A stretch of 33,796 nucleotides of DNA from Cellulomonas bogoriensis 69B4 = DSM 16987 (GTDB taxonomy: Bacteria > Actinomycetota > Actinomycetes > Actinomycetales > Cellulomonadaceae): the NCBI RefSeq assembly GCF_000767165.1, contig NZ_AXCZ01000012.1, forward strand, positions 1-33,796, in the 5' to 3' direction. Position numbers and translations under genes: made by a program. Under the pieces are notes generated by a model. That model worked only from the letters and a program-made list of their open reading frames with translations, did not search any database and was not told the DNA's origin. Positions 1 through 19,274 of this stretch are shown here, one piece after another; position 1 is the first letter of the stretch; each line of letters opens with the position of its first letter.

Positions 1-976
1 TCTCGGGTGTCGGGTCGGGTTCGTGTGCGGGCCGCCACGCCGCGTCCCGGCACTCGGACTCCGAGACCTTCGTGGGGTCTACCTGCCCGTCGAGGGTGAG
101 GGTCACGCACGCGTCGTAGAACACCTTGTCGTACTCGCGGAAGTTGAACACCTCTGCCCTGACGAGGAGGCGTTCGCCCTCAGGCGACCAGGTGACGCGG
201 TCCGGGAGCCAGAGGGTGTCGTCGAACACGACCTGGTCGGTGCCGTCGGCGGCCGCGTGAGCGGCGCGCCCCCCGATGCTGTATGCGATGCGTGTGCCGT
301 CCGGGGACCAGGCTGGGTTCGAACCCCAGGGGATGAGGAGGTCTCCTGGTGGTGGGGTGCTCCCGTCGGCCGCGACCACGTGGATCCCCTCGGGACCGCG
401 GTAGGCGATGCGGTCGCCGTCGGGGTGCCAGGCCGGGTCCCGGCCGGTGTAGCCCAGGTCCCGGATGTGCGTCCCATCCGTCGCGGAGATCACACGGTTG
501 CCCGTGGCGATCTCCGTCCCGTCCGGTGACCAGGACAGCCCGGCCAGGTCCGGGGTCCCCAGGTCACGCCAACTGCAGTCGGCCAGCGCGACGATGATCA
601 GGCTGGACGTGCCGCCCTGGTCATCCTCCGGTGTGAGCGCCAGCATGCTCCCGTCCTGCGACCAGGCGAGCTCTCGGTGCGATGACCACTTTGGCGCGGT
701 GAAGCGCACGTTGTGGAGCATCTGAAGCTCTCCCATGCACGGCGCGTTGTACCCACGCGCGTGGCCCTCCGCGAACTCGTCGCGCACCCCGGTCGGGATG
801 ATCGTGCGCACGTCGTCCTGGGTCGAGGCGGTGCTGGTGACCTCGCTCTGAGCCCCGGCCGGCATGACGGGGGTGGCTGCGAGGGCCAGTGCCAGGAGGG
901 GGACGGCACCTCGCCGCCCGAGCGTGCCCCACCTCCGTGGCGTGGCTCCCGGTTCTGCGATCCGGTTGCTGGTCAT
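1..976 (-). CDS. Secreted TolB/PD40-like beta-propeller protein, C-terminus beyond window edge
   Basis: The reading frame is open from an ATG at 976 to the left edge (325 residues visible). It starts with a Sec-type signal: an Arg-containing n-region, a Leu/Ala-rich core near residues 24-39, and a likely cleavage after A-G-A near residue 42. The mature part has propeller repeats of the form W-S-P-D-G-T-x-I-A (for example LSWSPDGTEIATG, PAWHPDGDRIAYRG, PAWSPDGTRIAYS, VTWSPEGERL). Conserved Cys occur in a D-C-S-W-R-D-L-G segment. The start is 8 bases after the stop of its upstream paralogue, and the Shine-Dalgarno AGGAG overlaps that stop, so the two are translationally coupled. It is a tandem duplicate of the gene at 985-2370. 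By analogy, the missing part should hold the Cys/Trp C-terminal module. Function unknown; extracellular by its signal. Confidence 0.85.
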   Translation of the reverse strand, partial: MTSNRIAEPGATPRRWGTLGRRGAVPLLALALAATPVMPAGAQSEVTSTASTQDDVRTIIPTGVRDEFAEGHARGYNAPCMGELQMLHNVRFTAPKWSSHRELAWSQDGSMLALTPEDDQGGTSSLIIVALADCSWRDLGTPDLAGLSWSPDGTEIATGNRVISATDGTHIRDLGYTGRDPAWHPDGDRIAYRGPEGIHVVAADGSTPPPGDLLIPWGSNPAWSPDGTRIAYSIGGRAAHAAADGTDQVVFDDTLWLPDRVTWSPEGERLLVRAEVFNFREYDKVFYDACVTLTLDGQVDPTKVSESECRDAAWRPAHEPDPTPE

Positions 977-984
977 GATCACTC

Positions 985-2370
985 CTAGCAGTCGGGGACG
1001 TCGGTGACGTACTCGAGGCTGTGGTGGCGGGCGGCTTGCACGACGGTGCCCCAACCGAGACCGCCCCTGCGCCATGTGCCGTCGGAGGAGTCCATGTAGT
1101 AGAAGGGGATGCTCAGGGGGACGCGGTGGCGGACGAGCCTGACGACCTGGTCCATCTGGACGGCCCACCCGGGTCCGCAGATGTGGGACTCGAGCAGCTG
1201 GGGGTCCAGGTCACGGGGCCAGGTGTGGCCGAACTCCACGTGCAGCAAGGTCTGGTGGCCGCTGTTGTGCCAGGAGGGTGGGGCGTCGGGGTCGACCTTG
1301 CGGTACAGGTAGACCAACGTCATCTCGGGTGTCGGGTCGGGTTCGCGTGCGGGTCGCCACGCCACGTCGCGGCACTCGGACTCAAGGATGAGGTTGTCGA
1401 CCTGCCCGTCGAGGGTCATGGCGATGCACGAACCGTGGAACACCTCGTCGTACTCGCGGTACGTGAAGGCTTCGGCCGTGACGGCGAGGCGCTCGCCCTC
1501 AGGTGACCAGGTCACCCGTGAGGGGTAGTCGAAGTCGTCCGGGAGCAGGGCCTGGTCGGTGCCGTCGGCGGCGGAGTGGGCCACGCGGCCCCCGGTCAGG
1601 TAGGCGATGCGTGTGCCGTCGGGGGACCAGGCGGGCATCCCGGCCCAGGGGATGAGGAGGTCTCCTGGTGGTGGGGTGCTCCCGTCGGCTGCGACCACGT
1701 AGATGCCGCCGCTCCCTCGGTAGGCGATGCGGTCCCCGTCGGGGTGCCAGGCCGGGTCCCTCCCGGTGTAGCCCAGGTCCCGGATGTGCGTCCCGTCGGT
1801 CGCGGAGATCACGCGGTTGCCGGTGGCGATCTCCGTCCCGTCCGGGGACCAGGACATCCCCGCGAGGCGCGGGTTCCCCAGGTCGTGCCACGTGCAGTCG
1901 GACAGCCTGACGACCCCAAGGCCGTACCGGACCGACCCCAGCTCCGCCCCGAGCATCGACTCCGCTTCGATCGCGAGCATGCTTCCGTCCTGCGACCACG
2001 CGAACTCCTGCGCTTGGTAGCGCGGGAGGAGGCTCAGCTCGGTGACAGGATTGTAGGGATGTCTCAGGCACGGTCCGTGGAACCCGTTCCCGAACGCGTA
2101 CACGAACTCATCGAGCACCCCGGTGGGGATTCGGGTAGGGACGTCATCCCCGGCCGAGGTGGCCTCGGTGGCCTCGCTCTGAGCGCCTGCTGGGGTGAGG
2201 GGTGTGACCGCCAGGGTCAGGGCGAGCAACGGGACGGCACCACGCCGCCCGATCGTGCTCCACCGGCGTCGCGTCGTGCCTGACGCGGGAGTCCGTGTGG
2301 CGGTCATGAGCGGTCGGAGCCGCCTACGGCGGCGAGGGCTGGGAATCGTGAGACGACGTTGTCCGGTCAT
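985..2370 (-). CDS. Secreted TolB/PD40-like beta-propeller protein with one C-terminal Cys/Trp module
   Basis: This 461-residue product has a signal peptide ending in a P-A-G-A-Q-S region, then a propeller built of W-S-P-D-G-T-E-I-A type repeats, then a C-terminal module encoded at about 987-1325. The module runs V-Y-L-Y-R-K-V-D-P, S-W-H-N-S-G-H-Q, R-D-L-D-P, I-C-G-P-G-W-A-V-Q, L-G-W-G-T, ending Y-V-T-D-V-P-D-C. The same module occurs in the genes at 11290 and 13230. Start choice is uncertain. ATG 2370 has a GGGGGG Shine-Dalgarno, but adds an Arg-rich leader. ATG 2307 (440 residues) aligns with the start of the downstream paralogue but has no clear Shine-Dalgarno. No anchor motif is seen, so release outside the cell is likely. 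The ligand and role are unknown. Confidence 0.85.
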   Translation of the reverse strand: MTGQRRLTIPSPRRRRRLRPLMTATRTPASGTTRRRWSTIGRRGAVPLLALTLAVTPLTPAGAQSEATEATSAGDDVPTRIPTGVLDEFVYAFGNGFHGPCLRHPYNPVTELSLLPRYQAQEFAWSQDGSMLAIEAESMLGAELGSVRYGLGVVRLSDCTWHDLGNPRLAGMSWSPDGTEIATGNRVISATDGTHIRDLGYTGRDPAWHPDGDRIAYRGSGGIYVVAADGSTPPPGDLLIPWAGMPAWSPDGTRIAYLTGGRVAHSAADGTDQALLPDDFDYPSRVTWSPEGERLAVTAEAFTYREYDEVFHGSCIAMTLDGQVDNLILESECRDVAWRPAREPDPTPEMTLVYLYRKVDPDAPPSWHNSGHQTLLHVEFGHTWPRDLDPQLLESHICGPGWAVQMDQVVRLVRHRVPLSIPFYYMDSSDGTWRRGGLGWGTVVQAARHHSLEYVTDVPDC

Positions 2371-2528
2371 GGTTGCCCCCCGGCGGTATCGCGCCGTGGC
2401 CCCCTGCCGGACGGCGCTGGGGAGCGCTGGGCTCCCGTCCGGCGAACGTAACAACCGACCGCGGGCCCGCCTACCCCCTCAGGGGATCGGATCGCGGACG
2501 CGGGGGTGGGGTTGTGCGGGTCTGGGGC

Positions 2529-2576
2529 GGGACGTCCGGCAGAGTTCACGTGTTCGTGACATCCGCCGGACGTCCC
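2529..2576 (-). terminator. Hairpin after nrdB, probable terminator of the nrdAB operon
   Basis: A perfect 12-bp inverted repeat (GGGACGTCCGGC at 2529-2540 with its complement at 2565-2576) encloses a second small stem (TCACG/CGTGA). It lies just after the nrdB stop at 2585 and before the next minus-strand gene. There is no T-run, as is common for actinobacterial terminators. Confidence 0.65.
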
Positions 2577-2584
2577 GTCGAGGG

Positions 2585-3586
2585 TCAGGCGCGGGCGGTG
2601 GAGGCGGCCGCGTTGACCTCGTAGCTGGTGTTGGTGGCCTCGAAGAAGTTCACCAGCTGCAGGGTGTCGTTCGCTGCGGCCATCCACTTGGCGGGGTTCG
2701 ACACCTTGTAGTGCGGGTCGAACCCGAGCTCCTCCAGGCGGCGGTCGGCCAGGTACTTGACGTACTGGTTCACGTAGTCGGCGTTCAGGCCGAGGATGCC
2801 GGTGGGCAGCAGGTCCCGGTTGTACTGCTCCTCCATGTCGACAGCGTCCAGGATCATCTGGCGGATCTCCTCGGCGAACTCCGGGGTCTGCAGGTCCTCG
2901 TTCTCCTCCAGGACGGTGAGGATGAGGTTGATCCCGAACTTCAGGTGCAGCGACTCGTCACGGATGATCCAGTCCATGAGGGACCCGAAGTTCCGCAGCA
3001 GGTTCCGCTGACGGAAGCTCAACGCGACCATGAACCCGCTGTAGAACCAGATGCCCTCGAGGATGACGTTGTACGCCACCAGGTTCCGCACGAAGTCCTG
3101 CTTGCCGGCGGTGGTGGTGATGTCGAGGGTCTGCTCGGTCATCCGCTTGATGTAGCGGACCTCGAACTCCTCCTTCGCGGCCATCGAGGGGACGGTCACG
3201 TGGGACTCGTACGCCTCGGCGCGGTCGATCGGGAACGTCTCCAGGACGTACTCGAACGACATGCAGTGGTTGGCCTCCTCCCACATCTGCTTCGCGAGGT
3301 ACAGGTGCGCCTCGGGTGCATTGATGTAGGGGTACACCCCGAACGCGAGCGCCTTGTTGACCAGCAGCTCGTTGGGGTTGAAGTAGCTCATGAGGAACGT
3401 GACGGCGTGCTTCTCCTCGTCAGTCATCTTCTGGAAGTCCGCGAGGTCCTCACCGAGCTGGATCTCGTTGGGGAACCACGTGTTCGCCACGGCCTGCTCG
3501 TACAGGTCCATGGCCCACTGGTAGCGCACGGGCTTGAGGAGCAGGCCCTCGGAGATCCCGGTGCCGAGCATCTGGGGTGCGGTCAT
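2585..3586 (-). CDS. nrdB: Ribonucleotide reductase class I beta subunit, class Ic-type (Phe at the radical position)
   Basis: The 333-residue product is the R2 subunit, which generates and stores the oxidant that starts ribonucleotide reduction in NrdA. The six metal ligands of the ferritin-like bundle are present: E73, E104, H107, E177, E211 and H214. The residue seven after E104, where the stable tyrosyl radical sits in class Ia/Ib proteins, is F111. The first ligand is Glu rather than Asp. These positions match the Chlamydia trachomatis class Ic protein (E89, E120, H123, F127, E193, E227, H230) with a constant offset of 16, and C-terminal Y322 matches its Y338. This predicts a Mn/Fe cofactor, not a Tyr radical. 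The gene lies 73 bases downstream of nrdA, starts at ATG 3586 with AAGGAG, and is followed by a hairpin. Confidence 0.96.
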   Translation of the reverse strand: MTAPQMLGTGISEGLLLKPVRYQWAMDLYEQAVANTWFPNEIQLGEDLADFQKMTDEEKHAVTFLMSYFNPNELLVNKALAFGVYPYINAPEAHLYLAKQMWEEANHCMSFEYVLETFPIDRAEAYESHVTVPSMAAKEEFEVRYIKRMTEQTLDITTTAGKQDFVRNLVAYNVILEGIWFYSGFMVALSFRQRNLLRNFGSLMDWIIRDESLHLKFGINLILTVLEENEDLQTPEFAEEIRQMILDAVDMEEQYNRDLLPTGILGLNADYVNQYVKYLADRRLEELGFDPHYKVSNPAKWMAAANDTLQLVNFFEATNTSYEVNAAASTARA

Positions 3587-3659
3587 GACGACTCCTTGTT
3601 CACATGGCCCGTCGTCGTGGTCGGGCCGGCGCGGTGGGTGGGTCAGGCTCGGGCAGGGA

Positions 3660-6383
3660 TCACTGGCAGGACTCGCACTGCAGGCGTTCCATCGGGTCGA
3701 CGGGGCACGCGACGCCGTCGACCACGTCGGTGTCGGACACGTCCGTGACCTCCAGCACCCGCTCGACCGCAGCCTCCAGCTGCTGGTCCGACGCGACGCT
3801 CGGCGCAGGCGCAGGCGCAGGCGCAGCTTTCGGGGTGGGCGCGGGAACGGGGGCTGGGTCCGCTGCCGGCTCCGGGGCCTTGGCCGTCGCGCCCCCGGTG
3901 GCCTTGCCGAACCCGAAGCCTCGACGCTGCGCCGGTGCGCTGCTCCCGGAGGTGGCCTCGGGGGTAGACGTCCCGGGCCGCTTCTCGGCCTTGTTGACCC
4001 GCACGGTCGACTGCTCGGCGGTGTGCCGGGGCTTCACGTGCAGGTAGTACGTCGTCTTCACACCCCGCTCCCACGCCGCGGAGTACAGGGACGCCATCTC
4101 ACCGACGTCCCGCGAGGCGAGGTAGATGTTCCGGCTGATCGCCTGGTCGATCCACTTCTGGGCGCGGGCCGCGACCTCGATGAACGCGTACGGCGAGAGC
4201 TGGAACGAGGTCCGGTACACGTCGCGGATCCGCTCCGGGATTCCCTCGACCTGCTCCAGGTCGCCCTGCGCGGCCAGCAGGTCCTCACGGACGTCGTCCC
4301 ACAGGCCGGCGGCCTGCAGGTCGCGCACCAGGTTGCGGTTGACCTCCAGGAACTTGCCCGAGGACGTGGCCCGGCTGAAGATCTGCGAGAACTGCGGGTC
4401 CAGGCCGGGGGTGGTGCCGGCGACCAGGCCGATGGACGCCGTCGGTGCGATGGCCATGAGGGTGGCGTTGCGGATGCCGCCCTTGACCTTGGTGCGCAGG
4501 GTGTCCCAGTCGAGGCGGGTGGTGCGGTCGACCTTCACCGGCACGCCGCGGTCGGCCTCGAGGCGGTCCAGGGTGTCGATCGGGACCATGCCCTTGGACC
4601 AGCCCGAGCCCTCGAAGTTCGCGTAGGCGCCGCGCTCGCGGGCCAGGTCGGCGCTGGCGTCGATCGCGTGGTAGCTGACGAACTCCATGACGCGGTCGAT
4701 CAGCTCGTAGGACTCTTCGGACTCGTACGCGTACCCGAGGCGCTCGGTCAGGTCGGTGAACCCCATGACGCCCAGACCGATCGCCCGGTTGGAGCGGTTG
4801 GCGTGGTCGGACTCGTCGACCGAGCTGAGGGTGATGTCGACCAGGTTGTCGAGCTGGCGGACGGCGGTGCGGGCGCTGTCACGCAGTCGGTCCCAGTCCA
4901 GGTCGCCGTCGGTCAGGTGCGCGGCGAGGTTGATGGACGCGAGGTTGCAGACGGCGATGTTGTCGCGGTCCTGCGGCAGGCAGATCTCGGTGCACAGGTT
5001 CGACAGGTGGATGGTCCCGGTGTTGTCGTTCAGCGCCCGGGAGTTGATGGTGTCCTTCCACGTGAGCCACGGGTGGGACGTGGTCTGCAGGGTGATGAGG
5101 ATGGAGGTCCACTGCTCGCGGGCCTTGATGCGGCGGTGCCGGCTCAGGCGCCCTGCCTTGGCCTCTGCGACGTAGTGGGCGTACCGGGCCGAGAACTCCG
5201 CGCCGGTCAGCTCGACCAGGTCGGGGGTCTCGGCGGGGTCGAACAGGTACCAGTCGTCGTCGGCGGCGACGCGCTTCATGAACTCGTCGCTGATCCACAC
5301 GGCGGTGTTGGCGGTGCGGGTGCGTCGGTAGGGGTCGCCGGAGTTCTGGCGCAGGTCCAGGAACTGGGGGAAGTCCAGGTGCCAGTTCTCCATGTAGAAG
5401 CACAGGGCCCCGAACTTCTTGCCCCCGCGGGACACCGCGCGCAGCGTGGAGTCGATCGTGTGCATGAACGGGATGGGCCCGGTGGAGGTGGTGTTGTTCG
5501 ACCGGATGGGCGAGCCCTCGGACCGCAGCTTGGTGACGGACAGGCCGATGCCGCCGGTGCCCTTGGTGAGCCACATGACGTCGCGCACCGACTTGGCGAT
5601 GTGCTCGATGTCGTCCTCCATCTGCATGACGAAGCAGTTGGAGAGCTGGGGGTAGGACGTCCCTGCGTTGACGAGGGTGGACCCGGCGGGCAGGTAGTCC
5701 AGGCGGGCGATCTTGTCGTAGAACCCGATCGCGGCGGCGGTGGGGTCGGCCTCGTTGAGGGACAGGCCCATGGCCACGCGCATCCAGAAGTACTGGGGGA
5801 CCTCCAGGGCCTTGCCGTGCCGGTCGTTGATCATGTACCGGTTCCGCATGGTGACGGTCCCGATGTAGTGCAGGTTCTCGTCGTGGTGGTGGTTCAGCGC
5901 GGCGGCGACGGCGTCGAGGTCGAAGTGGGTGACCAGGCGCTCGTCGAGCAGACCCTGCTCGACGGCCTCACGGACGTATCCGGGGAACCGGGCCTGGTGG
6001 AGCAGGGCGAGCTCGAGGTCGGTCTCGTAGTCGCCGAGCACACGCTTGTAGATGACCTTGCGCAGCAGGCGGGCGGCGATGACGTCGTAGTCCGGGTCGT
6101 CCTTGACGTTCTGGACGGCGACGCCGATGGCGGCCTCGTCGAGCTGCTCGGTGGTGATGCCGTCGAACAGGGTGATGGCGAGCTCGCTGGCGACCTGCAT
6201 GGCCTTGGCGATGTGATCGGTCAGGCCGGCGGCCGCGCGCTCGATCGCCTTGTTGATCATGTCGGCGTTGTAGGGCTCCTGCGTCCCGTCGCGCTTGGTG
6301 ACGTGGATGCGGGGTGTGTGGTGGGAGGTCGCGTCCCCGGACGGTGATCCGTCGGGGTTGGTGCGGAGGTCGGTGAGGGTCAT
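3660..6383 (-). CDS. nrdA: Ribonucleoside-diphosphate reductase class I alpha subunit
   Basis: The 907-residue catalytic subunit makes dNDPs from NDPs. An N-terminal ATP-cone (about residues 24-115) is the allosteric activity site. Active-site Cys are C250 (in S-N-C-F-V), thiyl C464 (in N-L-C-T-E-I-C) and C479 (in N-I-A-V-C-N-L). The radical-path tyrosines are Y779-Y780 (in V-K-T-T-Y-Y). The C-terminal redox pair is C903/C906 in the last five residues. Between the barrel and the tail is an unusually Ala/Pro-rich flexible stretch of roughly 50 residues. The frame stays open upstream to 6713, but that part overlaps the riboswitch. ATG 6383 has a GGGAGAG Shine-Dalgarno and begins right before the ATP-cone. 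It is the first gene of nrdA-nrdB, with a ~310-base leader carrying a cobalamin riboswitch and NrdR boxes. Confidence 0.97.
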   Translation of the reverse strand: MTLTDLRTNPDGSPSGDATSHHTPRIHVTKRDGTQEPYNADMINKAIERAAAGLTDHIAKAMQVASELAITLFDGITTEQLDEAAIGVAVQNVKDDPDYDVIAARLLRKVIYKRVLGDYETDLELALLHQARFPGYVREAVEQGLLDERLVTHFDLDAVAAALNHHHDENLHYIGTVTMRNRYMINDRHGKALEVPQYFWMRVAMGLSLNEADPTAAAIGFYDKIARLDYLPAGSTLVNAGTSYPQLSNCFVMQMEDDIEHIAKSVRDVMWLTKGTGGIGLSVTKLRSEGSPIRSNNTTSTGPIPFMHTIDSTLRAVSRGGKKFGALCFYMENWHLDFPQFLDLRQNSGDPYRRTRTANTAVWISDEFMKRVAADDDWYLFDPAETPDLVELTGAEFSARYAHYVAEAKAGRLSRHRRIKAREQWTSILITLQTTSHPWLTWKDTINSRALNDNTGTIHLSNLCTEICLPQDRDNIAVCNLASINLAAHLTDGDLDWDRLRDSARTAVRQLDNLVDITLSSVDESDHANRSNRAIGLGVMGFTDLTERLGYAYESEESYELIDRVMEFVSYHAIDASADLARERGAYANFEGSGWSKGMVPIDTLDRLEADRGVPVKVDRTTRLDWDTLRTKVKGGIRNATLMAIAPTASIGLVAGTTPGLDPQFSQIFSRATSSGKFLEVNRNLVRDLQAAGLWDDVREDLLAAQGDLEQVEGIPERIRDVYRTSFQLSPYAFIEVAARAQKWIDQAISRNIYLASRDVGEMASLYSAAWERGVKTTYYLHVKPRHTAEQSTVRVNKAEKRPGTSTPEATSGSSAPAQRRGFGFGKATGGATAKAPEPAADPAPVPAPTPKAAPAPAPAPSVASDQQLEAAVERVLEVTDVSDTDVVDGVACPVDPMERLQCESCQ

Positions 6384-6486
6384 GGTCGTGCTCTCCCAGT
6401 CGAGCCGGTGGTGCGGTGCCCTGGGACGACGACGCTGCGCACGACGGCGCGTGTTCGCCGAGCCCGCCCGAGAGGCCCCGAACCGA

Positions 6487-6507
6487 ACGTGCACCGGCGG
6501 TGCACGT
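6487..6507 (-). promoter_or_regulatory. Perfect 10-bp hairpin between B12 aptamer and nrdA, possible expression platform
   Basis: ACGTGCACCG and its exact complement are separated by one base, immediately downstream of the riboswitch aptamer on the transcribed strand. No T-run follows, and the nrdA ribosome binding site is about 90 bases further on. Whether it acts in attenuation or in sequestering translation signals cannot be told from sequence alone. Confidence 0.4.
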
Positions 6508-6510
6508 ACC

Positions 6511-6690
6511 GACGGCAGGTCTTCGGACTCGTGGGCGGTGGACCAGGCCCGGTCCGTCCTACTGGCCGTCGCTTCCCGGTCTCCCAGTGCGTCATGACGG
6601 CGGTCGTTCCCACTTACCGCTGCGGGGCAGTCCCGGAGTTCCACCGGGTTCCCTCTTGCCTCACCCGGATGGCGCCCGGGTGAACCGTTC
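6511..6690 (-). promoter_or_regulatory. Cobalamin (B12) riboswitch in the nrdA leader
   Basis: On the minus strand the conserved B12-box core is clear: GGTGGAACTCC, then GACTGCCCCGCAGCGGTAA, preceded by GGGAA. The closing element ACGAGTCCGAAGACCTGCC follows at 6514-6533. These are the hallmark elements of the adenosylcobalamin aptamer (consensus G-C-C-A-C-T-G / GACTGCCCCGCAACGGTAA and GAGCC-GGA-GACC-GCC). The aptamer starts almost at the predicted transcription start and lies about 130 bases before the nrdA start. In actinobacteria, B12 riboswitches on class I reductase operons shut them off when cobalamin allows a B12-dependent class II enzyme (NrdJ) to work. No nrdJ is in this window. The 5' boundary is approximate. 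Confidence 0.93.
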
Positions 6691-6699
6691 GGCTGTGCG

Positions 6700-6730
6700 A
6701 GCGTAACCCACAACTTGTCAGATCACACAA
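6700..6730 (-). promoter_or_regulatory. Probable nrdAB promoter
   Basis: On the minus strand TACGCT (6705-6700) fits a TAnnnT -10 element. TTGTGT (6730-6725) is 19 bases upstream as a -35 and overlaps the downstream NrdR box. The predicted start near 6693 leads straight into the riboswitch. The spacing is slightly long, so the exact start is uncertain. Confidence 0.5.
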
Positions 6731-6771
6731 GATGTAGGGGGTGTTGGCGCCACCCATCTCAAGATGTGGGG
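6725..6771 (-). promoter_or_regulatory. Tandem NrdR boxes upstream of nrdAB
   Basis: Two 16-bp boxes are seen on the minus strand, CCCCTACATCTTGTGT (6740-6725) and CCCCACATCTTGAGAT (6771-6756). They share the CACATCTTG/TACATCTTG core of the NrdR-box family. They are exactly 31 bp apart, the three-turn spacing typical of NrdR sites. One box overlaps the predicted -35. NrdR is the ATP/dATP-sensing repressor of reductase genes; its own gene is not in this window. Confidence 0.82.
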
Positions 6772-6820
6772 GTGATCACATGCTCTGCCCCTGGTAGGTC
6801 GCCGGGCGGACGGGCGTGAC

Positions 6821-6987
6821 CTGCGGGTACGCAGAACCCCGACGGCCGCCTGGGCGCGTCGGGGTCGGGTCGGGTTCACGGTGGGTGCGGGTCGGAGCGC
6901 TGCTCGACGACCGGCTCACGCCCTGCACGGGCGTGAGGGGCGCACTGCCGGGTCGCGGAGCCCCCTGGTCACGCGACCCGGCAGTGC
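6821..6987. repeat. Cluster of four inverted repeats, including a perfect 16-bp stem
   Basis: Four hairpins follow one another: CTGCG/CGCAG (6821-6834), CCCCGACG/CGTCGGGG (6837-6864), CTCACGCCC/GGGCGTGAG (6915-6937), and GCACTGCCGGGTCGCG with its exact complement (6942-6957 and 6972-6987). They sit between the upp 3' end and the nrdAB promoter. They may terminate minus-strand transcription coming from upp, but upp ends 450 bases earlier and there is no T-run. Their role is unproven. Confidence 0.6.
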
Positions 6988-7436
6988 AGAGTCCTCAGTC
7001 AGCATCCCCCGAGCCGACGAGGACGTTCTCGGGTGCGCAGCCGGCGGACCGACCCGCACCCCGGACGGTGACGGCAGGCAGGTAGCCCCCCAGCTCCACG
7101 CACAGCCGTCGCACACGAATACCGTCACGGTGACCGGAGCGAACCCGTGCGACGGACAGCCACCCGTCTGTCACAAGAGCCCGCTCGTTTGTCACAGGTT
7201 GAGTCTGGGGCCTGGGGCGCCCGGCGACAAAGGGATTCCGGGAACGTCTCACGATGTGAACGAGTCTCACCTGTTCGGAGGTGGACAGGCTGGACATAGC
7301 GGACATTCGGGCGCGAACTGTTGAGGTTTCAACGTCCACGCGTTGGGCACGAACGGTGAACGGAGTCATAATTGTTTGTCACAATGTGACGCAATCGGGC
7401 TTTGTGCCCAGAACCGTCAAGCGTGCGGTCCTCGGG
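6988..7436. other. Intergenic stretch with no convincing gene; repeated TGTCACA words
   Basis: This part is visibly less GC-rich than its surroundings. A 124-codon minus-strand frame (6995-7369) exists, but its third codon positions are only moderately GC-rich and it resembles nothing I know. TGTCACA occurs three times (7169-7175, 7190-7196, 7377-7383). The last lies inside a perfect GTCACA-A-TGTGAC dyad at 7378-7390. The dyad could be an operator, but no plus-strand gene follows it. Confidence 0.4.
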
Positions 7437-8072
7437 TCAGACCAGCCCGTAGAGCCGGTCCCCGGCATCGCCCAGGCCGGGGACGATGTACGCCTTCTCG
7501 TTGAGGCGCTCGTCGACGGCGGCGACCACCACGGTCACGTCGGCGCGGTCACCGACGTGCTCCTCGACCACCCGTACGCCCTCGGGTGCGGCGAGCAGGC
7601 AGATGCACGTCACGTCCCGTGCACCCCGCTCGAACAGGTAGTCGATGCTCGCCACGAGCGTGCCCCCGGTGGCGAGCATGGGGTCCAGGACGAAGCACTG
7701 GCGCCCGGAGAGGTCCTCGGGCAGGCGGTTGGCGTAGGTGATGGCCTGGAGGGTCTCCTCGTCGCGCTGCAACCCCAGGAACCCGACCTCCGCCGTCGGC
7801 AGCAGCCGGGTCATCCCCTCGAGCATGCCCAGGCCCGCGCGCAGGATCGGGACGACCAGGGGCCGGGGGTCGGCGATCGCCGTCCCGATGGTCGTGGCCA
7901 CCGGTGTGGTCACCTCGACGTCCGCGGTGCGCACGTCGCGTGTGGCCTCGTAGGCCAGAAGCGTGACGAGCTCCTCGGCCAGGTGCCGGAAGGTGGGGGA
8001 GGGGGTCCGGGCATCGCGCAGGAGCGTGAGCTTGTGGGCGATCAGGGGGTGGTCGGCGACGTGCAGGCGCAT
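7437..8072 (-). CDS. upp: Uracil phosphoribosyltransferase
   Basis: This cytosolic salvage enzyme makes UMP from uracil and PRPP. At 211 residues it has the usual length. The PRPP-binding loop is seen in [11 protein letters not shown]. The uracil-binding C-terminal segment is [21 protein letters not shown] in the central part is also typical. The ATG at 8072 was preferred over an upstream in-frame Met because homologues begin M-R-L-x-V-x-D-H-P-L. It is preceded either by a GGTGAGG ribosome site or, read differently, by TACGGT exactly six bases upstream (leaderless type). It is divergent from tadA, and the uracil permease gene at 30665 may supply its substrate. Confidence 0.96.
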
Positions 8073-8182
8073 GGCCTCACCGTACCGCCGCACCCTGCAC
8101 CGCATCCCGTGCCGCACCGGCCTTCGGCTACCGTCCGGTGGCAGGGGCGGGCCGGTGCGGGGCGGTGTTCACGGAGGTGTGG

Positions 8183-8647
8183 GTGAGGCAGCGGGACGAG
8201 GACCACATGCGTGGCGCGCTCGACGAGGCGCGCCTGGCGCTGGTGACCGGGGACGTGCCCGTCGGCGCGCTCGTCGTGGACCCGGACGGCCGGGTCGTGG
8301 GCCGGGGCCACAACGCCCGTGAGGCCACCGGTGACCCGACCGCCCACGCCGAGGTGCTGGCCCTGCGCACCGCGGCGCAGCACCTGGGCCGGTGGCGGTT
8401 GGACGACTGCACCCTGGTCGTGACCCTCGAGCCGTGCGCCATGTGCGCAGGCGCGCTCGTCCTGGCCCGTGTCCCGCGCCTGGTGCTGGGGGCGTGGGAC
8501 CCGAAGGCCGGGGCGACGGGGTCGGTGCACGACCTGGCGCGCGATCGCCGCCTGAACCACCAGGTCGAGGTCTACGGTGGGGTGCTGGCGGACGAGTGCG
8601 CCGCACTGCTGCGCGACTTCTTCGCCGCCCACCGCCAGGACGGCTGA
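8183..8647 (+). CDS. tadA: tRNA-specific adenosine deaminase (A34 to inosine)
   Basis: The 154-residue zinc deaminase converts the wobble adenosine of tRNA-Arg(ACG) to inosine. The zinc-site motifs are H55-A-E57, with Glu as proton shuttle, and P-C85-A-M-C88. The start is GTG 8183, five bases after GGAGG (8173-8177). It gives R-Q-R-D-E-D-H-M-R-x-A-L, which aligns with the family N-terminus. An ATG at 8207 would cut into the first helix. The gene is divergent from upp across about 110 bases and is followed after 14 bases by a lipoprotein gene, probably co-transcribed. Confidence 0.93.
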   Translation: MRQRDEDHMRGALDEARLALVTGDVPVGALVVDPDGRVVGRGHNAREATGDPTAHAEVLALRTAAQHLGRWRLDDCTLVVTLEPCAMCAGALVLARVPRLVLGAWDPKAGATGSVHDLARDRRLNHQVEVYGGVLADECAALLRDFFAAHRQDG

Positions 8648-8661
8648 CCGAGGGGGTCGCC

Positions 8662-9201
8662 ATGCGAGGACGAGTCGTCGTCTGCGCTGTCACGCTGTTG
8701 CTCGTGGCCGGGTGCACGGGCCCGGGCGGGTCTTCTCAGGTGCTCGCGAAGGTGGACGACTGGCATCCCGACACCCCTCAGGAGGCCTTCGCCCGGCTGG
8801 AGGTCGCCTACGACGAGCAGGCCGCGCGGCAGATGTGGGACGGGAACGTCGACCCCGCCCTGCCCGTACGGGAGGGCAACCCCCTCGAGCCGGGCGTCTA
8901 CGGAGACCTCGGGGACGTGGACCTCCAGACGCAGGTCCTCGCCCTGTACTCCGCGGGGCAGTCGGGGAGCTGCCCCCAGTGGCCCGTCTCGGTGACGACC
9001 TCCGACGGTGTGGTTCAGGTCGAGGTCACCGAGGACCTCCAGGGTGGGGACGGCTGCACCGACGACTACAACCCGTACCGGGCGCTCGTCGTCGTCGACC
9101 GGGACGAGGTGCCCCCGGTCGACGAGATCGACGACGCGCAGGGCAACCTCGCCGGCGGGTCCGGGCTCTCCGTCGAGCTCGGGGTCTACCGGGCCGACTG
9201 A
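8662..9201 (+). CDS. Predicted lipoprotein of unknown function
   Basis: The 179-residue product has a short signal with lipobox L-V-A-G-C (Cys about residue 17), so it should be lipid-anchored on the outer face of the membrane. The mature part is acidic and has two further Cys, in S-C-P-Q-W-P-V and D-G-C-T-D-D-Y-N, that could form a disulfide. No known domain is recognised. ATG 8662 follows GAGGGGG. It lies 14 bases after tadA on the same strand, and its 3' end is 3 bases from the convergent VOC gene. Confidence 0.85.
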   Translation: MRGRVVVCAVTLLLVAGCTGPGGSSQVLAKVDDWHPDTPQEAFARLEVAYDEQAARQMWDGNVDPALPVREGNPLEPGVYGDLGDVDLQTQVLALYSAGQSGSCPQWPVSVTTSDGVVQVEVTEDLQGGDGCTDDYNPYRALVVVDRDEVPPVDEIDDAQGNLAGGSGLSVELGVYRAD

Positions 9202-9204
9202 CCG

Positions 9205-9597
9205 TCAGCCGGGTGCGTCCATGTAGAAGACCTCCCACAGGTGCCCGTCGGGGTCGGCGACCGTGAACCCGTACATGGCTCCCTCCTCGACGGGACCCTG
9301 CAGGGTGCCGCCGTGGGAGACGGCGCGCTCGACGAACTGGTCGACCTCGTCGCGGTCCCGTGCGGCCAACGCGTTGATCACCTGGGTGCTGGTGCGGGCG
9401 TCGGCGATCTCACGGGTGGTGAAGTCCGCGAAGCGGTCCCGGTGCAGCAGCATCACGAAGATCGTCTCTGAGATGACGATGCACGCGACCTTCTCGTCGC
9501 AGAAGTCCTCGTTCACCGTGAACCCGAGCCCGGTGTAGAAGCGGCGCGAGGCCTCGAGGTCGGTGACCGGCAGGTTGACGAAGATCATGCGGTTCAT
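9205..9597 (-). CDS. VOC superfamily protein (glyoxalase/bleomycin-resistance fold)
   Basis: The 130-residue product has the paired beta-alpha-beta-beta-beta modules of the vicinal oxygen chelate fold. The N-terminus reads F-V-N-L-P-V-T-D-L-E-A-S-R-R-F-Y, and the C-terminus G-F-T-V-A-D-P-D-G-H-L-W-E-V-F. It belongs to the broad glyoxalase-like group whose members are often annotated as lactoylglutathione lyase relatives. The true substrate cannot be read from sequence. ATG 9597 follows GGGAGGAG. It lies 65 bases downstream of the sirtuin gene on the same strand and may share its transcript. Confidence 0.9.
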   Translation of the reverse strand: MNRMIFVNLPVTDLEASRRFYTGLGFTVNEDFCDEKVACIVISETIFVMLLHRDRFADFTTREIADARTSTQVINALAARDRDEVDQFVERAVSHGGTLQGPVEEGAMYGFTVADPDGHLWEVFYMDAPG

Positions 9598-9662
9598 GGT
9601 TCTCCTCCCAGGTGCCCCCCGTGCGGGGACTCACCGGTACCGACCGCCCAACGCCCCGGAAC

Positions 9663-10385
9663 TCATCGGTGCGTGTCGCCCAGGGCCTCGGCCAGGGCGG
9701 TCAGGGTGGGCGAGGTGCCCGCGTCCAGCAGCGCATCGGCGCCGTCGACCAGGGCCATCGCCCGGGCCACCCTGGCTGGCGGGACGTTCTCACCGAAGTA
9801 CACGATGTCGGGCTTGAGAAGGCCCCCGCACGCCTCGCAGTCCGCGACCGTGAACCCCTCGGTCGAGGCGATGACGGCGTCGGCGTCCGGTGCGATCTCC
9901 ACGTCGGCGACGACGGCCTCCACGAACCCCGGGTTGAGGGCTTCCAGCCGCACCGCCAGCTCGTCCCGGCTGATGACCATCCCGCACCCCAGGCACAGCA
10001 CCCTGGCGTAGGTGCCGTGCAGGTCGATCACGGCCCGGCTGCCCGCGGCCTGGTGCAACCGGTCCACGTTCTGGGTGAGGACGCCCACCACCGCACCGGC
10101 GGCCTCCATGCGAGCCAGGGCCAGGTGCCCGTCGTTGGGACGGGTGCGGTGCACGTGCCGCCACCCCACGTGGTTCCGTGCCCAGTAGGTGCGCCGGTAG
10201 GCGGCATCACCCACGAACTGCTGGAACGTCATGGGGGACCGCGGGGGCGATCCAGGACCCCGGTAGTCCGGGATCCCCGAGTCGGTCGAGATCCCCGCCC
10301 CCGTCAGCACAGCGACCCGCTGCCCACGGAGAATCGCCACCGCGGCGTCGACGTCCCGTGGTGGCGCGAGCAGGTCTTCGCGCAC
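9663..10385 (-). CDS. Sir2-family NAD-dependent protein deacylase, short C-terminus
   Basis: Sirtuins remove acyl groups from lysines using NAD. Seen here are the NAD motif G-A-G-I-S-T-D-S-G-I-P-D (residues 29-40), T-Q-N-V-D (104-108), catalytic H123 in D-L-H-G-T, and zinc Cys C131, C134, C183 and C186. The protein then reaches A-G-T-S-P-T-L at 222-228 and stops at residue 240. Homologues continue for several strands after G-T-S-L-x-V, including the V-x-N segment that closes the NAD pocket. That part is missing in all frames downstream. GTG 10385 has TAGCGT exactly six bases upstream, which suggests a leaderless message. It may be a decayed or altered sirtuin. Confidence 0.85.
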   Translation of the reverse strand: MREDLLAPPRDVDAAVAILRGQRVAVLTGAGISTDSGIPDYRGPGSPPRSPMTFQQFVGDAAYRRTYWARNHVGWRHVHRTRPNDGHLALARMEAAGAVVGVLTQNVDRLHQAAGSRAVIDLHGTYARVLCLGCGMVISRDELAVRLEALNPGFVEAVVADVEIAPDADAVIASTEGFTVADCEACGGLLKPDIVYFGENVPPARVARAMALVDGADALLDAGTSPTLTALAEALGDTHR

Positions 10386-10488
10386 CCCACCACGCTACGT
10401 CACCGACCAGACGAGCGCGTGGTGCCTGACCTGCGACGACGCCACGATTCGGCTACCAGCGGGCCTAGCGGGTACCCTTGGTCGCCGA

Positions 10489-10578
10489 GGTAGCGTGTCC
10501 GAGCGGCCTAAGGAGCACGCCTCGAAAGCGTGTGTGGGTGAAAGTCCACCGTGGGTTCAAATCCCACCGCTACCGCCA
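10489..10578 (+). tRNA. tRNA-Ser (anticodon CGA), CCA encoded
   Basis: The acceptor stem is GGTAGCG/CGCTACC with discriminator G and an encoded CCA. The anticodon stem is CACGC/GCGTG around loop CTCGAAA, with anticodon CGA at 10523-10525. A long variable arm (GTGGGTGAAAGTCCACC region), typical of class II tRNAs, and a GTTCAAAT T-loop are present. A TACCCT hexamer at 10472-10477 could be its -10 element. Confidence 0.97.
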
Positions 10579-10580
10579 AC

Positions 10581-10622
10581 CGAAGGGCCCCACCCGCACA
10601 CTCGTGCGGCTGGGGCCCTTCG
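10581..10622 (+). terminator. Hairpin terminator of tRNA-Ser
   Basis: CGAAGGGCCCCA pairs perfectly with TGGGGCCCTTCG, with a second stem CCGCAC/GTGCGG inside the loop. It starts three bases after the tRNA CCA. Confidence 0.85.
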
Positions 10623-10823
10623 TCGCTCCCGGGTCTGCCGAGGCGACGAAGAGCGGCCGCGGACCAGTCCCGGGACCGCCCTCCGTTCATGCTCGGGCGG
10701 GCGCTCAGGGCGGCGTCGGCACCTGTGCGCCGTGCTGTGGCGTGTCCCGTCGGCAGAGGGGCGAGGCGCTAACGTGGCGAGAACCCGTCCGCGCCTCGCG
10801 GGCACGACCAGGAAGGGCCTCGC

Positions 10824-11087
10824 GTGCCACCACTCCTCTCGTCACGGCGGCTGTTCTGGGTGGGGATCGCGTTCGCGTTCGTCCCACCGTTGCTGAACGT
10901 CCTGCTGAGCGTCCTGCTCAGCGGGGCGCTGACCGGTACCGGGTGGGCCACGATGCGCGTCCTGTCCACCGTGACCGCGTTCGTCGGGACGATCCTGCAG
11001 CCGTTCGCGCTCATCGGCGCGGGGCTGGTCGCCGCCTCGTTCGTCGTCCGGCACGTGGAGGCAGCGCGCACCAGCCCGGAGCCCTGA
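10824..11087 (+). CDS. Small membrane protein, two predicted TM helices
   Basis: The 87-residue hydrophobic protein has one long apolar stretch at about residues 10-36 and a second at about 45-75, so two membrane helices are likely. The C-terminal tail is charged. GTG 10824 follows AGGAAGG with seven bases between. A TAACGT hexamer some 50 bases upstream could be a -10 element. No family is recognised. It precedes the propeller gene pair by 200 bases on the same strand, but that gap makes co-transcription uncertain. Confidence 0.75.
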   Translation: MPPLLSSRRLFWVGIAFAFVPPLLNVLLSVLLSGALTGTGWATMRVLSTVTAFVGTILQPFALIGAGLVAASFVVRHVEAARTSPEP

Positions 11088-11289
11088 CGGGCGGGTCCGG
11101 CGGGCAGGCGAGGGCTGCGACTGCGGTGGAGCGGAAAGTGTGACGTTCGTCTCGGTCATTGTGGTCATGAAAACCGTGAGGGACCGTTGGTCCCACCGGG
11201 GTCATGGCATCGGTGGGAGCGCGATGCTGCCGACCGACGGGTGCCATGTGAGCGACAGGCGCCGTCACCGGTCGTAAGCAGGGGGACAC

Positions 11290-13179
11290 ATGAGGGCTCG
11301 ACGGACGACGACTGCTGCGCTGGGGCTGGTCCTGGTCACGGCAGGAGGTGCAGGACCAGCGGCGGCCGAGCAGCTGCCACCGTTGCAGGGGTCACCGGCG
11401 ATCGAGGTCCCCGGTGAGCTGGCGTACTACTCCGCCGATGGATTCCGGGGCGTCTGCCCGGTACCCCCGGGTGCACCGGCCTACTCGACGCCGTTCAACG
11501 GCATGTTCGGGTACGACTGGGCCTTCTCCCCGGACGGTGCCGAGCTGGCGATGGACGTCCGGGGCGGCACGGACGGGCCCACCTCTCGCCTGGTGGTGGT
11601 GGACCTCGAGGACTGCACCTGGAGGGACCTCGGCCCGACCGAGCGGGAGCTTCCTTCCACCGACCCGCGTCGCGAGCCGGAGGTGGAGGAGCTGCTCCAC
11701 GGGATCGCGTGGTCGCCCGACGGCACCGAGCTGGCCCTGGGGTGGGAGGGCGACGTCGTCGTGGTGTCGGCCACCACCGGCGAGCACCTGCGCAAGATCA
11801 CCGACACCCCTGACGTCGAGGAGTACAGCCCGACGTGGCACCCGGACGGAGACGTGATCGCCTACAGCGCCGGTGTGTACAGGGGGCGTGGCCCCTCGGA
11901 CTTCTGGCAGCACGTGCAGGTGTCACCGGCGGACGGCAGCGGTGGCGCCCGCACCCTCGTGCGTGATGCCACCGACCCCCGGTACTCACCGGACGGTGCA
12001 CGGATCGCGTACGTGCGGGTGCCTCCGCGCAACGTCTACGGCACGTACCAGCCTGCGGTCTACGGGCACTCCCGGGCCACCGACGGTGGGGACGAGACCC
12101 TCCTGCCCGAGGGGCTGATGGCCGGTTCCCCGATCACCTGGTCCCCGGACGGGCGGTACCTGACCTTCGACGCTCAGGTGCACACGGGTGGTGGGGTCAC
12201 CGAGGACGTCAACCGGTGCCACGTCGTCGACCTGGCCGGGGCAGCGGTCTGGTCCTCACGTCCTGAGCTCGAGGACTGCTACCTGCCAGCGTTCCGCCCG
12301 GGGTCGACGCCGGTGGCGTTGCCGGCGTCCGGTCCGCTCCCCGTCGTCGCACCGCTCCCGCCGCCGCGCGCGGGACTCAACCGGGACAGCACAGCGGTGT
12401 ACGTGTACCGCAAGCTCGACCCGGGTGCGCCGGCGTCGTGGGAGAACAGCGGTGTGCAGCAGCTGGTGTGGATCTCTCAGCTGGACTACGGGCTGGACCC
12501 GCGCTACTGGTTCGTTCCCGAGGGGATGTGCGGGTCCGGCTGGGGTGCCCACGTGGGTCGGGTGCGTGGCGACGACCGCACCCTGGCGATGTTCGTGGAC
12601 CCGACGGTCGACGCTCCGTTCCCCGGCGAGGTGGTGGTGCGGCAGGAGGAGCACCTCGAGCTCGACCCCATGGTCGACCTGCCGCCCTGCCCCATGGTCG
12701 ACCCCGTGCCCGGTCCAGGGCCGGTGACCGCGGTGTACGTGTACCCGAAGGTGGACCCCACCGCTGCCGCGTCGTGGGTCAACTCCGGCCCTCAGCGTCT
12801 GGTCGACCTGCGTGAGGGTCACGGGTGGTTCCGTGACCTGGACCCTGCGCTCCTGCCCGACGACGTGTGCGGGCCGGGCTGGGGGGTGCAGCTGGACTGG
12901 GTGGTCGGTCTGGAACGTGAGGACGTGCCCACCGAGGTCGACCGCTCGACCGGCACGGGCCTCATGGGATGGGGCACGACGGTCGTCCAGGCCCGTCACC
13001 ACAGCTTGGCGTACGTCACCGACGTCCCGGAGTGCGACGACGAGGCACCGGACGGGGACGTCGCGCCCGGTGCGGGTCACGACCGGGAGCCGGTCGGTAC
13101 GAGGGTGCCCGACCGGCGTCCGGGACGGGGGGTCTGCGAGACGGCGGCGTGCCTGCCGGCAGCGCCGACGACGAACTAG
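11290..13179 (+). CDS. Secreted beta-propeller protein with two C-terminal Cys/Trp modules
   Basis: The 629-residue product starts with a Sec signal (cleavage near A-A-A-E, residue 27). A propeller follows with F-S-P-D-G-A-E-L-A, W-S-P-D-G-T-E-L-A, W-H-P-D-G-D-V-I-A, Y-S-P-D-G-A-R-I-A and W-S-P-D-G-R-Y-L-T repeats. Two modules come next. Module a (bases 12391-12690) has Y-V-Y-R-K-L-D-P, W-E-N-S-G-V-Q and C-G-S-G-W-G-A. Module b (12723-13035) has Y-V-Y-P-K-V-D-P, W-V-N-S-G-P-Q, R-D-L-D-P and C-G-P-G-W-G-V-Q. A Pro-rich hinge joins propeller and modules, and an unrelated ~45-residue tail follows. ATG 11290 has AGGGGG. The next gene is a close paralogue 50 bases downstream. Extracellular; ligand unknown. 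Confidence 0.88.
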   Translation: MRARRTTTAALGLVLVTAGGAGPAAAEQLPPLQGSPAIEVPGELAYYSADGFRGVCPVPPGAPAYSTPFNGMFGYDWAFSPDGAELAMDVRGGTDGPTSRLVVVDLEDCTWRDLGPTERELPSTDPRREPEVEELLHGIAWSPDGTELALGWEGDVVVVSATTGEHLRKITDTPDVEEYSPTWHPDGDVIAYSAGVYRGRGPSDFWQHVQVSPADGSGGARTLVRDATDPRYSPDGARIAYVRVPPRNVYGTYQPAVYGHSRATDGGDETLLPEGLMAGSPITWSPDGRYLTFDAQVHTGGGVTEDVNRCHVVDLAGAAVWSSRPELEDCYLPAFRPGSTPVALPASGPLPVVAPLPPPRAGLNRDSTAVYVYRKLDPGAPASWENSGVQQLVWISQLDYGLDPRYWFVPEGMCGSGWGAHVGRVRGDDRTLAMFVDPTVDAPFPGEVVVRQEEHLELDPMVDLPPCPMVDPVPGPGPVTAVYVYPKVDPTAAASWVNSGPQRLVDLREGHGWFRDLDPALLPDDVCGPGWGVQLDWVVGLEREDVPTEVDRSTGTGLMGWGTTVVQARHHSLAYVTDVPECDDEAPDGDVAPGAGHDREPVGTRVPDRRPGRGVCETAACLPAAPTTN

Positions 13180-13229
13180 GTCACAGCACCGGCACCCGTG
13201 CGTGCCGGTCCGATGCAGGGGGAGCGGTC

Positions 13230-14993
13230 ATGCGGGGGCGACGGGCGACGACGGTGGCGCTGGGCATCGTGCTGGTGGCGGTGGGGGGTGCGGGCCCTGC
13301 GGCGGCGGACGAGGCGCCACCCCCTGAGTTCGCGTCCCCGATCACGATCCCCGGGGACCTGGCTTACTACTCCCCGGAGGGGTTCGCGGGCATCTGCCCG
13401 GTGCCACCGGGAACGCCGTCGTACTCGACACCGTTCAACGGGGCGTTCGGTTACGACTGGGCGTTCTCCGCAGACGGTGCCGAGCTGGCGATGGACGTCC
13501 GCGGCGGGACGGAGGGGACCACCCGGCACCTGGTCGTGGTGGACCTCGAGGACTGCACGTGGCGGGACCTGGGCCCCACACAACGGGTCGTCCCACCCAC
13601 CGAACCCGGCCTGGGTCCGGACTGGGTGGACCTGCTCCACGGGATCGCGTGGTCGCCCGACGGCACGGAGCTGGCCCTGGGGTGGGAGGGTGACATCGTC
13701 GTGGTCTCGGCAGCGACCGGTGAGCACCTGCGCACCATCACCGACAACCCGGACGTCGAGGCGTACAAGCCGACGTGGCACCCCGACGGTGACGTGATCG
13801 CACACACAGCCGCGGTCTCCACCGGCCGGGCCCCGTCGGACACCTGGCGGCACATCCAGGTCTCGCCGGCGGACGGCAGCGGCGGCGCGCAGACGCTCGT
13901 GCGCGATGCTGCCGACGCCCAGTACTCACCCGACGGTGAGCGGATCGCGTTCCGGCGGGTGCCCCCACGGAACGTTCACGGCACCCACCAGCCGGCGGTG
14001 TACGGGCACGCGCGTGCCGCGGACGGCGGGGACGAGGTGCTCCTGCCGGAGGGCCTGATGGCGAGCCGCCAGATCTCCTGGTCGCCGGACGGCGCGTACC
14101 TGGCCTTCGACGCACGGGTCCACACCGGGGGAGGCGTCTCGGAGAGCCGCACCCGGTGCCATCTGGCCGACCTGGCCGGGAGCATCGTGTGGTCCTCGGA
14201 CCCGGATCTCCGTGCGTGCTACCTGCCGGCGTTCCGCCCGCGGTCGACGCCCGTGGCGTTGCCGGAGTCCGGCCCGGTCCCTGACGTCGCACCGCTCCCG
14301 CCGCCACGTCCCATCAACCGGAACAGCACGGCCGTGTACCTGTATCGCAAGCTTGACCCGGAGGCCGCGGCGTCGTGGGAGAACAGCGGGGTGCAGCAGC
14401 TGGTGTGGGTCTCGGCCACGGAGTTGACGGTCGATGACCCCGTCAGGTGGTTCCTTCCCGAGGGGTTGTGCGGCTCGGGCTGGGGTGCCCATGTGGGTCG
14501 GTTGCGTGGTGACGACCGCACCCTGGCGGTGTTCGTGGACCCGACGGTCGACGACCCGTTCCCCGGTGAGGTGACGGTGCGTGAGGAGGAGCACCGCGAG
14601 TTCGACACCATGTACGACATCCCGCCGTGCGACGACGAGGAGCCGGCTCCGGGCGTCGAGCCGGAGCCGATCACTGCGGTGTTCGTGTACGAGCGCCTCG
14701 ATCCGGACCGGGCGCCCTCGTGGGGGAACTCGGGGATGCAGCGCCTGGTGGAGATCCGTGACGGTCACAGCTGGTTCCGGGACCTGGACCCTGGTGCGCT
14801 TCCCGACGACGTGTGCGGTCCCGGGTGGGCCGCGCAGGTCGACTGGCTCGTCGGCACCGAACGCGACCAGGTCCCTGAGGTGATCGACAAGAAGAGCGGC
14901 ATCGGCGTCCTGGGGTGGGGCACCCGGGTGCTCCAGGCGCGCCATCACAGCCTCGGGTACCTGACAGACGTCCCGCCGTGTCCTGACGTCTAG
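13230..14993 (+). CDS. Secreted beta-propeller protein with two C-terminal Cys/Trp modules (paralogue)
   Basis: The 587-residue product repeats the plan of its upstream neighbour: signal peptide ending A-A-A-D, propeller with W-S-P-D-G repeats, Pro-rich hinge, then module a (bases 14325-14629) and module b (14670-14990). Module b ends in T-D-V-P-P-C, close to the protein's end, with no extra tail. Long stretches are nearly identical to the gene at 11290, so this is a tandem duplication. ATG 13230 follows AGGGGGAG, which is better than any upstream in-frame start. A strong terminator follows the stop. It is probably co-transcribed with the preceding gene. No sorting signal or transmembrane anchor is present. 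Confidence 0.88.
   Translation: MRGRRATTVALGIVLVAVGGAGPAAADEAPPPEFASPITIPGDLAYYSPEGFAGICPVPPGTPSYSTPFNGAFGYDWAFSADGAELAMDVRGGTEGTTRHLVVVDLEDCTWRDLGPTQRVVPPTEPGLGPDWVDLLHGIAWSPDGTELALGWEGDIVVVSAATGEHLRTITDNPDVEAYKPTWHPDGDVIAHTAAVSTGRAPSDTWRHIQVSPADGSGGAQTLVRDAADAQYSPDGERIAFRRVPPRNVHGTHQPAVYGHARAADGGDEVLLPEGLMASRQISWSPDGAYLAFDARVHTGGGVSESRTRCHLADLAGSIVWSSDPDLRACYLPAFRPRSTPVALPESGPVPDVAPLPPPRPINRNSTAVYLYRKLDPEAAASWENSGVQQLVWVSATELTVDDPVRWFLPEGLCGSGWGAHVGRLRGDDRTLAVFVDPTVDDPFPGEVTVREEEHREFDTMYDIPPCDDEEPAPGVEPEPITAVFVYERLDPDRAPSWGNSGMQRLVEIRDGHSWFRDLDPGALPDDVCGPGWAAQVDWLVGTERDQVPEVIDKKSGIGVLGWGTRVLQARHHSLGYLTDVPPCPDV

Positions 14994-16789: not shown

Positions 16790-19274
<2,485 letters not shown>

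Follow-up and report, generated by a model that had tools for sequence, protein, structure and literature searches.

In this study we show that a module of ~100 residues, present in five copies in secreted propeller proteins on one contig of Cellulomonas bogoriensis, represents a genuine domain family that none of the libraries we searched names. This adds a family missing from these libraries, on outward-facing proteins of actinobacteria. With a probability of about one half, we are dealing with an exported beta domain that folds on its own, serves in recognition, was moved from anchored proteins onto secreted propellers and was then multiplied. The family itself, its carriers, the fusion to propellers, the duplication and the changed residues are all read from sequence.

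The window, i.e. the whole stretch of 33,796 bases analysed here, is contig C77, one of the 524 contigs that make up a genome of 3.18 Mb. Three of its genes combine a signal peptide (recognised by eye) with a TolB-like propeller and the module. The gene at 985..2370 on the minus strand, with an alternative start at 2307, has one C-terminal module of type b, while the tandem paralogues at 11290..13179 and 13230..14993 on the plus strand have a type-a and then a type-b module, in the former case followed by a 44-residue tail. A paralogous propeller gene (2..976, minus strand) is cut by the contig edge and reads ...HEPDPTPE directly before the expected module. The assignment of these genes to a propeller family by the earlier note holds: PD40 repeats scored above the cut-off in all three proteins (E 9.4e-12 for gene 985, 5.8e-15 and 1.8e-07 for the others), and a fold search with the 11290 protein put TolB structures on top. 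By eye, none of the three window proteins has a sorting signal (LPxTG/LAxTG, membrane stretch, basic tail); their C-termini consist of the module end or a polar tail. Contig C53 of the same genome (8,897 bases) bears three further propeller-module genes in tandem, each with a single type-b module, and altogether the genome holds at least seven such genes (one of them cut) and eight modules. In out-of-frame translation the right end of C53 seems to start in the tail of a propeller-gene module. Probably C53 and C77 are neighbours broken at the module repeat, and the real tandem array probably extends further than the assembly shows. Not far from its module genes the window encodes a GH9 cellulase with CBM2 and CBM3 (16793-19231), and genes resembling carotenoid-synthesis genes by eye lie beside the array on C53 (L011, 679-4925).

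A profile of 36 rows, none of them from the source genus (which in our counts takes in Actinotalea sp. C106 and Actinotalea fermentans), was run against the 367 six-frame stretches of the window. It found the five copies that had been noticed earlier, one in gene 985 and two in each of the others, at i-E 3.3e-17 to 3.8e-28: type b at 988-1317 on the minus strand (5.7e-22) and, on the plus strand, type a at 12394-12699 (3.3e-17), type b at 12730-13044 (3.8e-28), type a at 14331-14639 (1.1e-17) and type b at 14676-14990 (3.3e-24). One extra stretch was listed at i-E 180, and the reversed control on the same 367 stretches gave no match at E 10. In the alignment W-x-N-S-G-x-Q and the terminal Cys stand in all five copies as described. 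Other parts of the described motif needed correction: the opening V-Y-x-Y-x-K-x-D-P is found in four copies but reads V-F-V-Y-E-R-L-D-P in the copy at 14676, the centre C-G-x-G-W is common to all five but its next G is present in three and replaced by A in two, and T-D-V-P-x-C is restricted to the three type-b copies, whereas the type-a copies end in V-D-L-P-P-C and Y-D-I-P-P-C. A DNA pattern for the C-G-x-x-G-W-G centre gave 7 matches genome-wide vs 23 for the backward-read control. The evidence for the repeat is the entire module, not this centre.

As the earlier note had supposed, no named domain fits. The best E values were 0.013 in Pfam (1 of 46 module members), 0.032 in NCBIfam (1 of 46) and 0.45 in PHROGs (1 of 12), none of them significant; hence we reject the idea of a known named domain. 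Searches of the open-licence literature, by motif words or otherwise, found nothing on the module. A structure prediction of one copy, which had been proposed earlier, gave a confident and compact AlphaFold2 model (46 rows, query 12724-13044; pLDDT 94.9, pTM 0.87, five strands of at least 3 residues). With this model Foldseek returned 23 matches in the PDB, none meaningful (best E 3.9, TM at most 0.28), and reached at best E 1.1 and TM at most 0.45 in a viral structure library; by sequence no relative was found in the PDB up to E 5. The PDB search itself is functional, since the full-length model of the 11290 protein (8 rows, pLDDT 66.2, propeller fair, modules poor and of low confidence) found TolB at 1.1e-11. 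For a small beta domain, an absent Foldseek match does not prove that the fold is new. With its confident model and no solved fold to match it, the module nevertheless lends itself well to structural work and to a search for its ligand.

The module is also present outside the source genome, as profile and pattern scans detected it in other genera. The earlier note had named two outcomes that would speak against its module, a match to a named domain and a motif confined to this genome without a predicted fold, and neither occurred. A first profile of 5 rows matched 6 of 59 relatives. With a profile of 13 rows, 53 of 150 genomes and 8 of 25 genera of the family matched, 52 of the 53 genomes by a single match; five matches (G135, G146, G159, G166, G172) cover only about the first 35 positions. 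Within the source genus 3 of 19 genomes match, two of them (the source genome and G005) with propeller plus module and the third (G013) with the module alone. A nine-residue pattern searched in 84,980 species returned 23 stretches, of which 22 were confirmed (Cellulomonas 8, Oerskovia 6, Arthrobacter 3, Actinotalea 2, Protaetiibacter 1, one Micrococcales MAG and one Actinomycetales MAG); the pattern is narrow, and 22 is a lower bound. A wide spread of the module finds no support: in a draw from the order, 10 of 297 genomes matched, the source genome included and all of its own family (16 candidates scored per genome), and in a draw from the phylum the only match among 396 was the source genome itself (12 candidates scored per genome). 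In the family of G052 none of 186 genomes matched, an empty result that carries no weight in this search, and the reach of all three broad draws is weak.

In the relatives nearly all carriers of the module are putative sortase-anchored surface proteins, as judged by their sequence signal. Among 53 fetched carriers, counted as distinct by their last 60 residues and excluding the three window proteins, 46 have a C-terminal L[APG]x[TS]G plus a hydrophobic stretch by a permissive hydrophobicity count; outside the source genus the same motif and count give 46 of 48. The seven carriers lacking the signal are five source-genus proteins (three from the source genome), L074, which is cut by a contig end, and L026, a viral protein with a membrane stretch and no canonical motif. 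The earlier remark on similar segments in other Micrococcales surface proteins was borne out by the carriers in Oerskovia, Arthrobacter, Protaetiibacter and others. For C. gilvus a single LPXTG protein, with no homologues in the other Cellulomonas genomes, is reported in a paper on Cellulomonas genomes (PMC3544764); LAxTG carriers such as the present ones would be missed by that LPXTG count. The usual order is an N-terminal part, the module, a P/T-rich or multi-domain stalk and the anchor, with the module mostly in the N-terminal half, ahead of the stalk. Oerskovia-type carriers have ~90 residues ahead of it, and L026 and L063 another N-terminal stretch. The module seems able to stand alone, because carriers of ~190-350 residues (the smallest seen, on viral contig L093, has 188) consist of one module, stalk and anchor.

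Gene context points to no function. In 11 loci (L065, L073, L075, L078-L081 and L103-L106, the first seven being named Cellulomonas loci) a ribosomal-protein operon contains the module gene, with map on one side of it and infA on the other. There secY, adk, map, rpsK and rpoA were identified by Pfam matches in L080 and by tblastn in L103-L106; in the other named Cellulomonas loci secY, adk, map and rpsK followed from all-against-all homology, as did rpoA where the stretch reaches it. The genes which we take to be infA, rpmJ and rpsM were assigned in each of the 11 loci by motifs typical of their products. Too little downstream sequence is present in an eighth Cellulomonas locus, L074, and in L099 the module gene is found 4.4 kb past rpoA. 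In Oerskovia (L067, 1753-8140; same flanks in L068 and L069) the module gene is preceded by genes for an ECF sigma factor and an RskA-type anti-sigma factor and followed by fasciclin and DsbD/thioredoxin-like genes. This resembles the mpt83-sigK-rskA cassette, which has been described from mycobacteria and others (PMC7509140); O. flava (L094), however, has no sigma, anti-sigma or DsbD-like gene beside its module gene. Among the genera examined no flanks are common, except between Protaetiibacter and one Micrococcales MAG.

How could the module have come to the propellers? We propose a ~100-residue exported beta domain, probably closed by a C49-C104 disulfide, whose role would most likely be non-catalytic recognition; export, the disulfide and binding are what we infer here. 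In the relatives the module is situated distally, towards the N-terminus of surface proteins with a sortase anchor. In the source genome it would have been transferred to secreted TolB-like propellers, at whose C-terminus a single copy or a pair might fasten the propeller to a target or a cell surface. Tandem duplication would then have multiplied the fusion, and an internal copy (type a) would have drifted, with Q-x-D changed and specificity probably altered or lost. A recognition role is favoured because carriers are anchored and stalked, the module can be their sole folded part, and it is attached to propellers in the window. The layout like that of fibrillar adhesins, the conserved cysteines, the compact model, the TolB-like propeller and the grouping in the tree speak for this proposal. 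Against it, the module has no structural relative and is not always outermost (Oerskovia-type carriers, L026, L063), and the residues N20, S21, Q24, Q56, D58 and H92 are conserved and polar and would suit an active site too. Lacking an anchor, the window proteins may not share the role that the module has in the relatives.

The module might instead be structural, a spacer or self-association domain that orders wall-anchored fibres or oligomerises propellers with no outside ligand, an explanation that we regard as possible though not probable. The ribosomal-protein operon at the 11 loci would suggest steady housekeeping expression, and the single match in nearly all matching family genomes fits such a use as well. 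It is less easily reconciled with carriers in which the module is the sole folded part, and with the presence of the module on phage contigs.

Four distinct metagenomic viral contigs carry the module (L025, identical to L090; L026, identical to L092; L091; L093). Of ten of their genes compared with PHROGs eight matched, with functions of tail, endolysin or peptidase, integrase, exonuclease, helicase and resolvase. Each contig had at least one phage-type match, and therefore we consider all four to be phages. On L093 (5710-8447) a gene of ~188 residues with signal peptide (by eye), module and LPVTG comes after an integrase gene and a small gene of helix-turn-helix type, the latter matched under the curated cut-off. 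L093 is thus a temperate-phage-like contig, and its module protein a candidate surface protein of lysogens. The module proteins of L090 (7830-8450) and L091 (7875-8456) have LAETG and a membrane stretch but, by eye, no signal peptide. In a tree of 55 rows and 104 columns, where 13 of the 52 inner branches are open, L093 and L026 pair at 100/99; L025 groups with a MAG, and L091 does so with Oerskovia, in both cases at support below the starred level; several uptakes by phages are possible on this tree. A tblastn search of named phage and plasmid records with four queries (E limits 0.1 and 0.01) gave no match, the 50,697 named phage records included, so the phage evidence rests on the four metagenomic contigs. 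Of two further viral scans one returned three stretches, none confirmed, and the other only L093 again. It might even be that the module is a new small extracellular recognition fold on the surface of Cellulomonadaceae and their relatives, which phages took up, perhaps repeatedly, and display on the lysogen wall (as signal peptide, module and LPVTG beside an integrase), possibly blocking or mimicking a receptor, and which in the source genome moved onto secreted propellers and multiplied; we consider this wider scenario rather doubtful. The phage copies do pose a testable question: what do lysogens show on their surface?

Across 46 aligned rows Y7, W18, N20, S21, Q24, C49 and H92 are invariant, and C104 is present in 45. 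This pattern could also be that of an enzyme domain in which S21, D58 and H92 (with K9, N20, Q24 and Q56) would form a catalytic site and type a would be a pseudo-enzyme. D58 stands in 44 of 46 rows, both exceptions being the type-a copies, but no known enzyme was matched by sequence or fold at a meaningful score, and we hold a catalytic role to be unlikely. An isopeptide bond at K9 was dropped as a candidate, with R in place of K in 2 of 46 rows.

Q56 and D58 are missing solely in the two type-a rows, which have H and G instead (H-x-G for Q-x-D) and retain W18, N20, S21, Q24, C49, H92 and C104. In the 55-row tree both type-a copies form a pair (100/100) whose branch has a length of 1.35, and the type-b propeller modules form one group of 7 rows with the module of Actinotalea sp. 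C106 (98/92). Judged from this tree, type a is a long-branch derivative. The earlier rule that type a comes first and type b last is seen in both double-module genes, but it amounts to a single event because these genes are tandem paralogues (72% identity); the single-module genes (one in the window, three on C53) are all type b. The alternation deserves less weight than it was given. That the repeats are a mere by-product of gene duplication in one genome, as the tandem pair and the second tandem set might suggest, we reject as highly improbable, since the module occurs apart from propellers in other genera and on viral contigs and has a confident predicted fold of its own.

Three known systems come closest to the module and its carriers. 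For Actinobacteria the LAXTG motif is described as the signal of class E sortases (PMC5148588). Nearly all carriers outside the source genus share this LAxTG or the LPxTG signal with sortase-anchored proteins; the module, however, is no part of the definition of that group, and the window proteins do not have the signal. TolB-type propellers (PD40, TIGR02800) resemble the N-terminal part of the window proteins, but these are not TolB proper: they reach 21.7, 39.4 and 23.5 bits, far under the TIGR02800 equivalog cut-off of 343.15. TolB is not known to carry such C-terminal modules. The structure models of a survey of fibrillar adhesins are of Firmicutes proteins (PMC9210967). Although the present module has no significant Pfam match and adhesion by its carriers is putative, many carriers are like the fibrillar adhesins described there (PMC9210967), with a signal peptide, a folded module, a P/T-rich or multi-domain stalk and a wall anchor.
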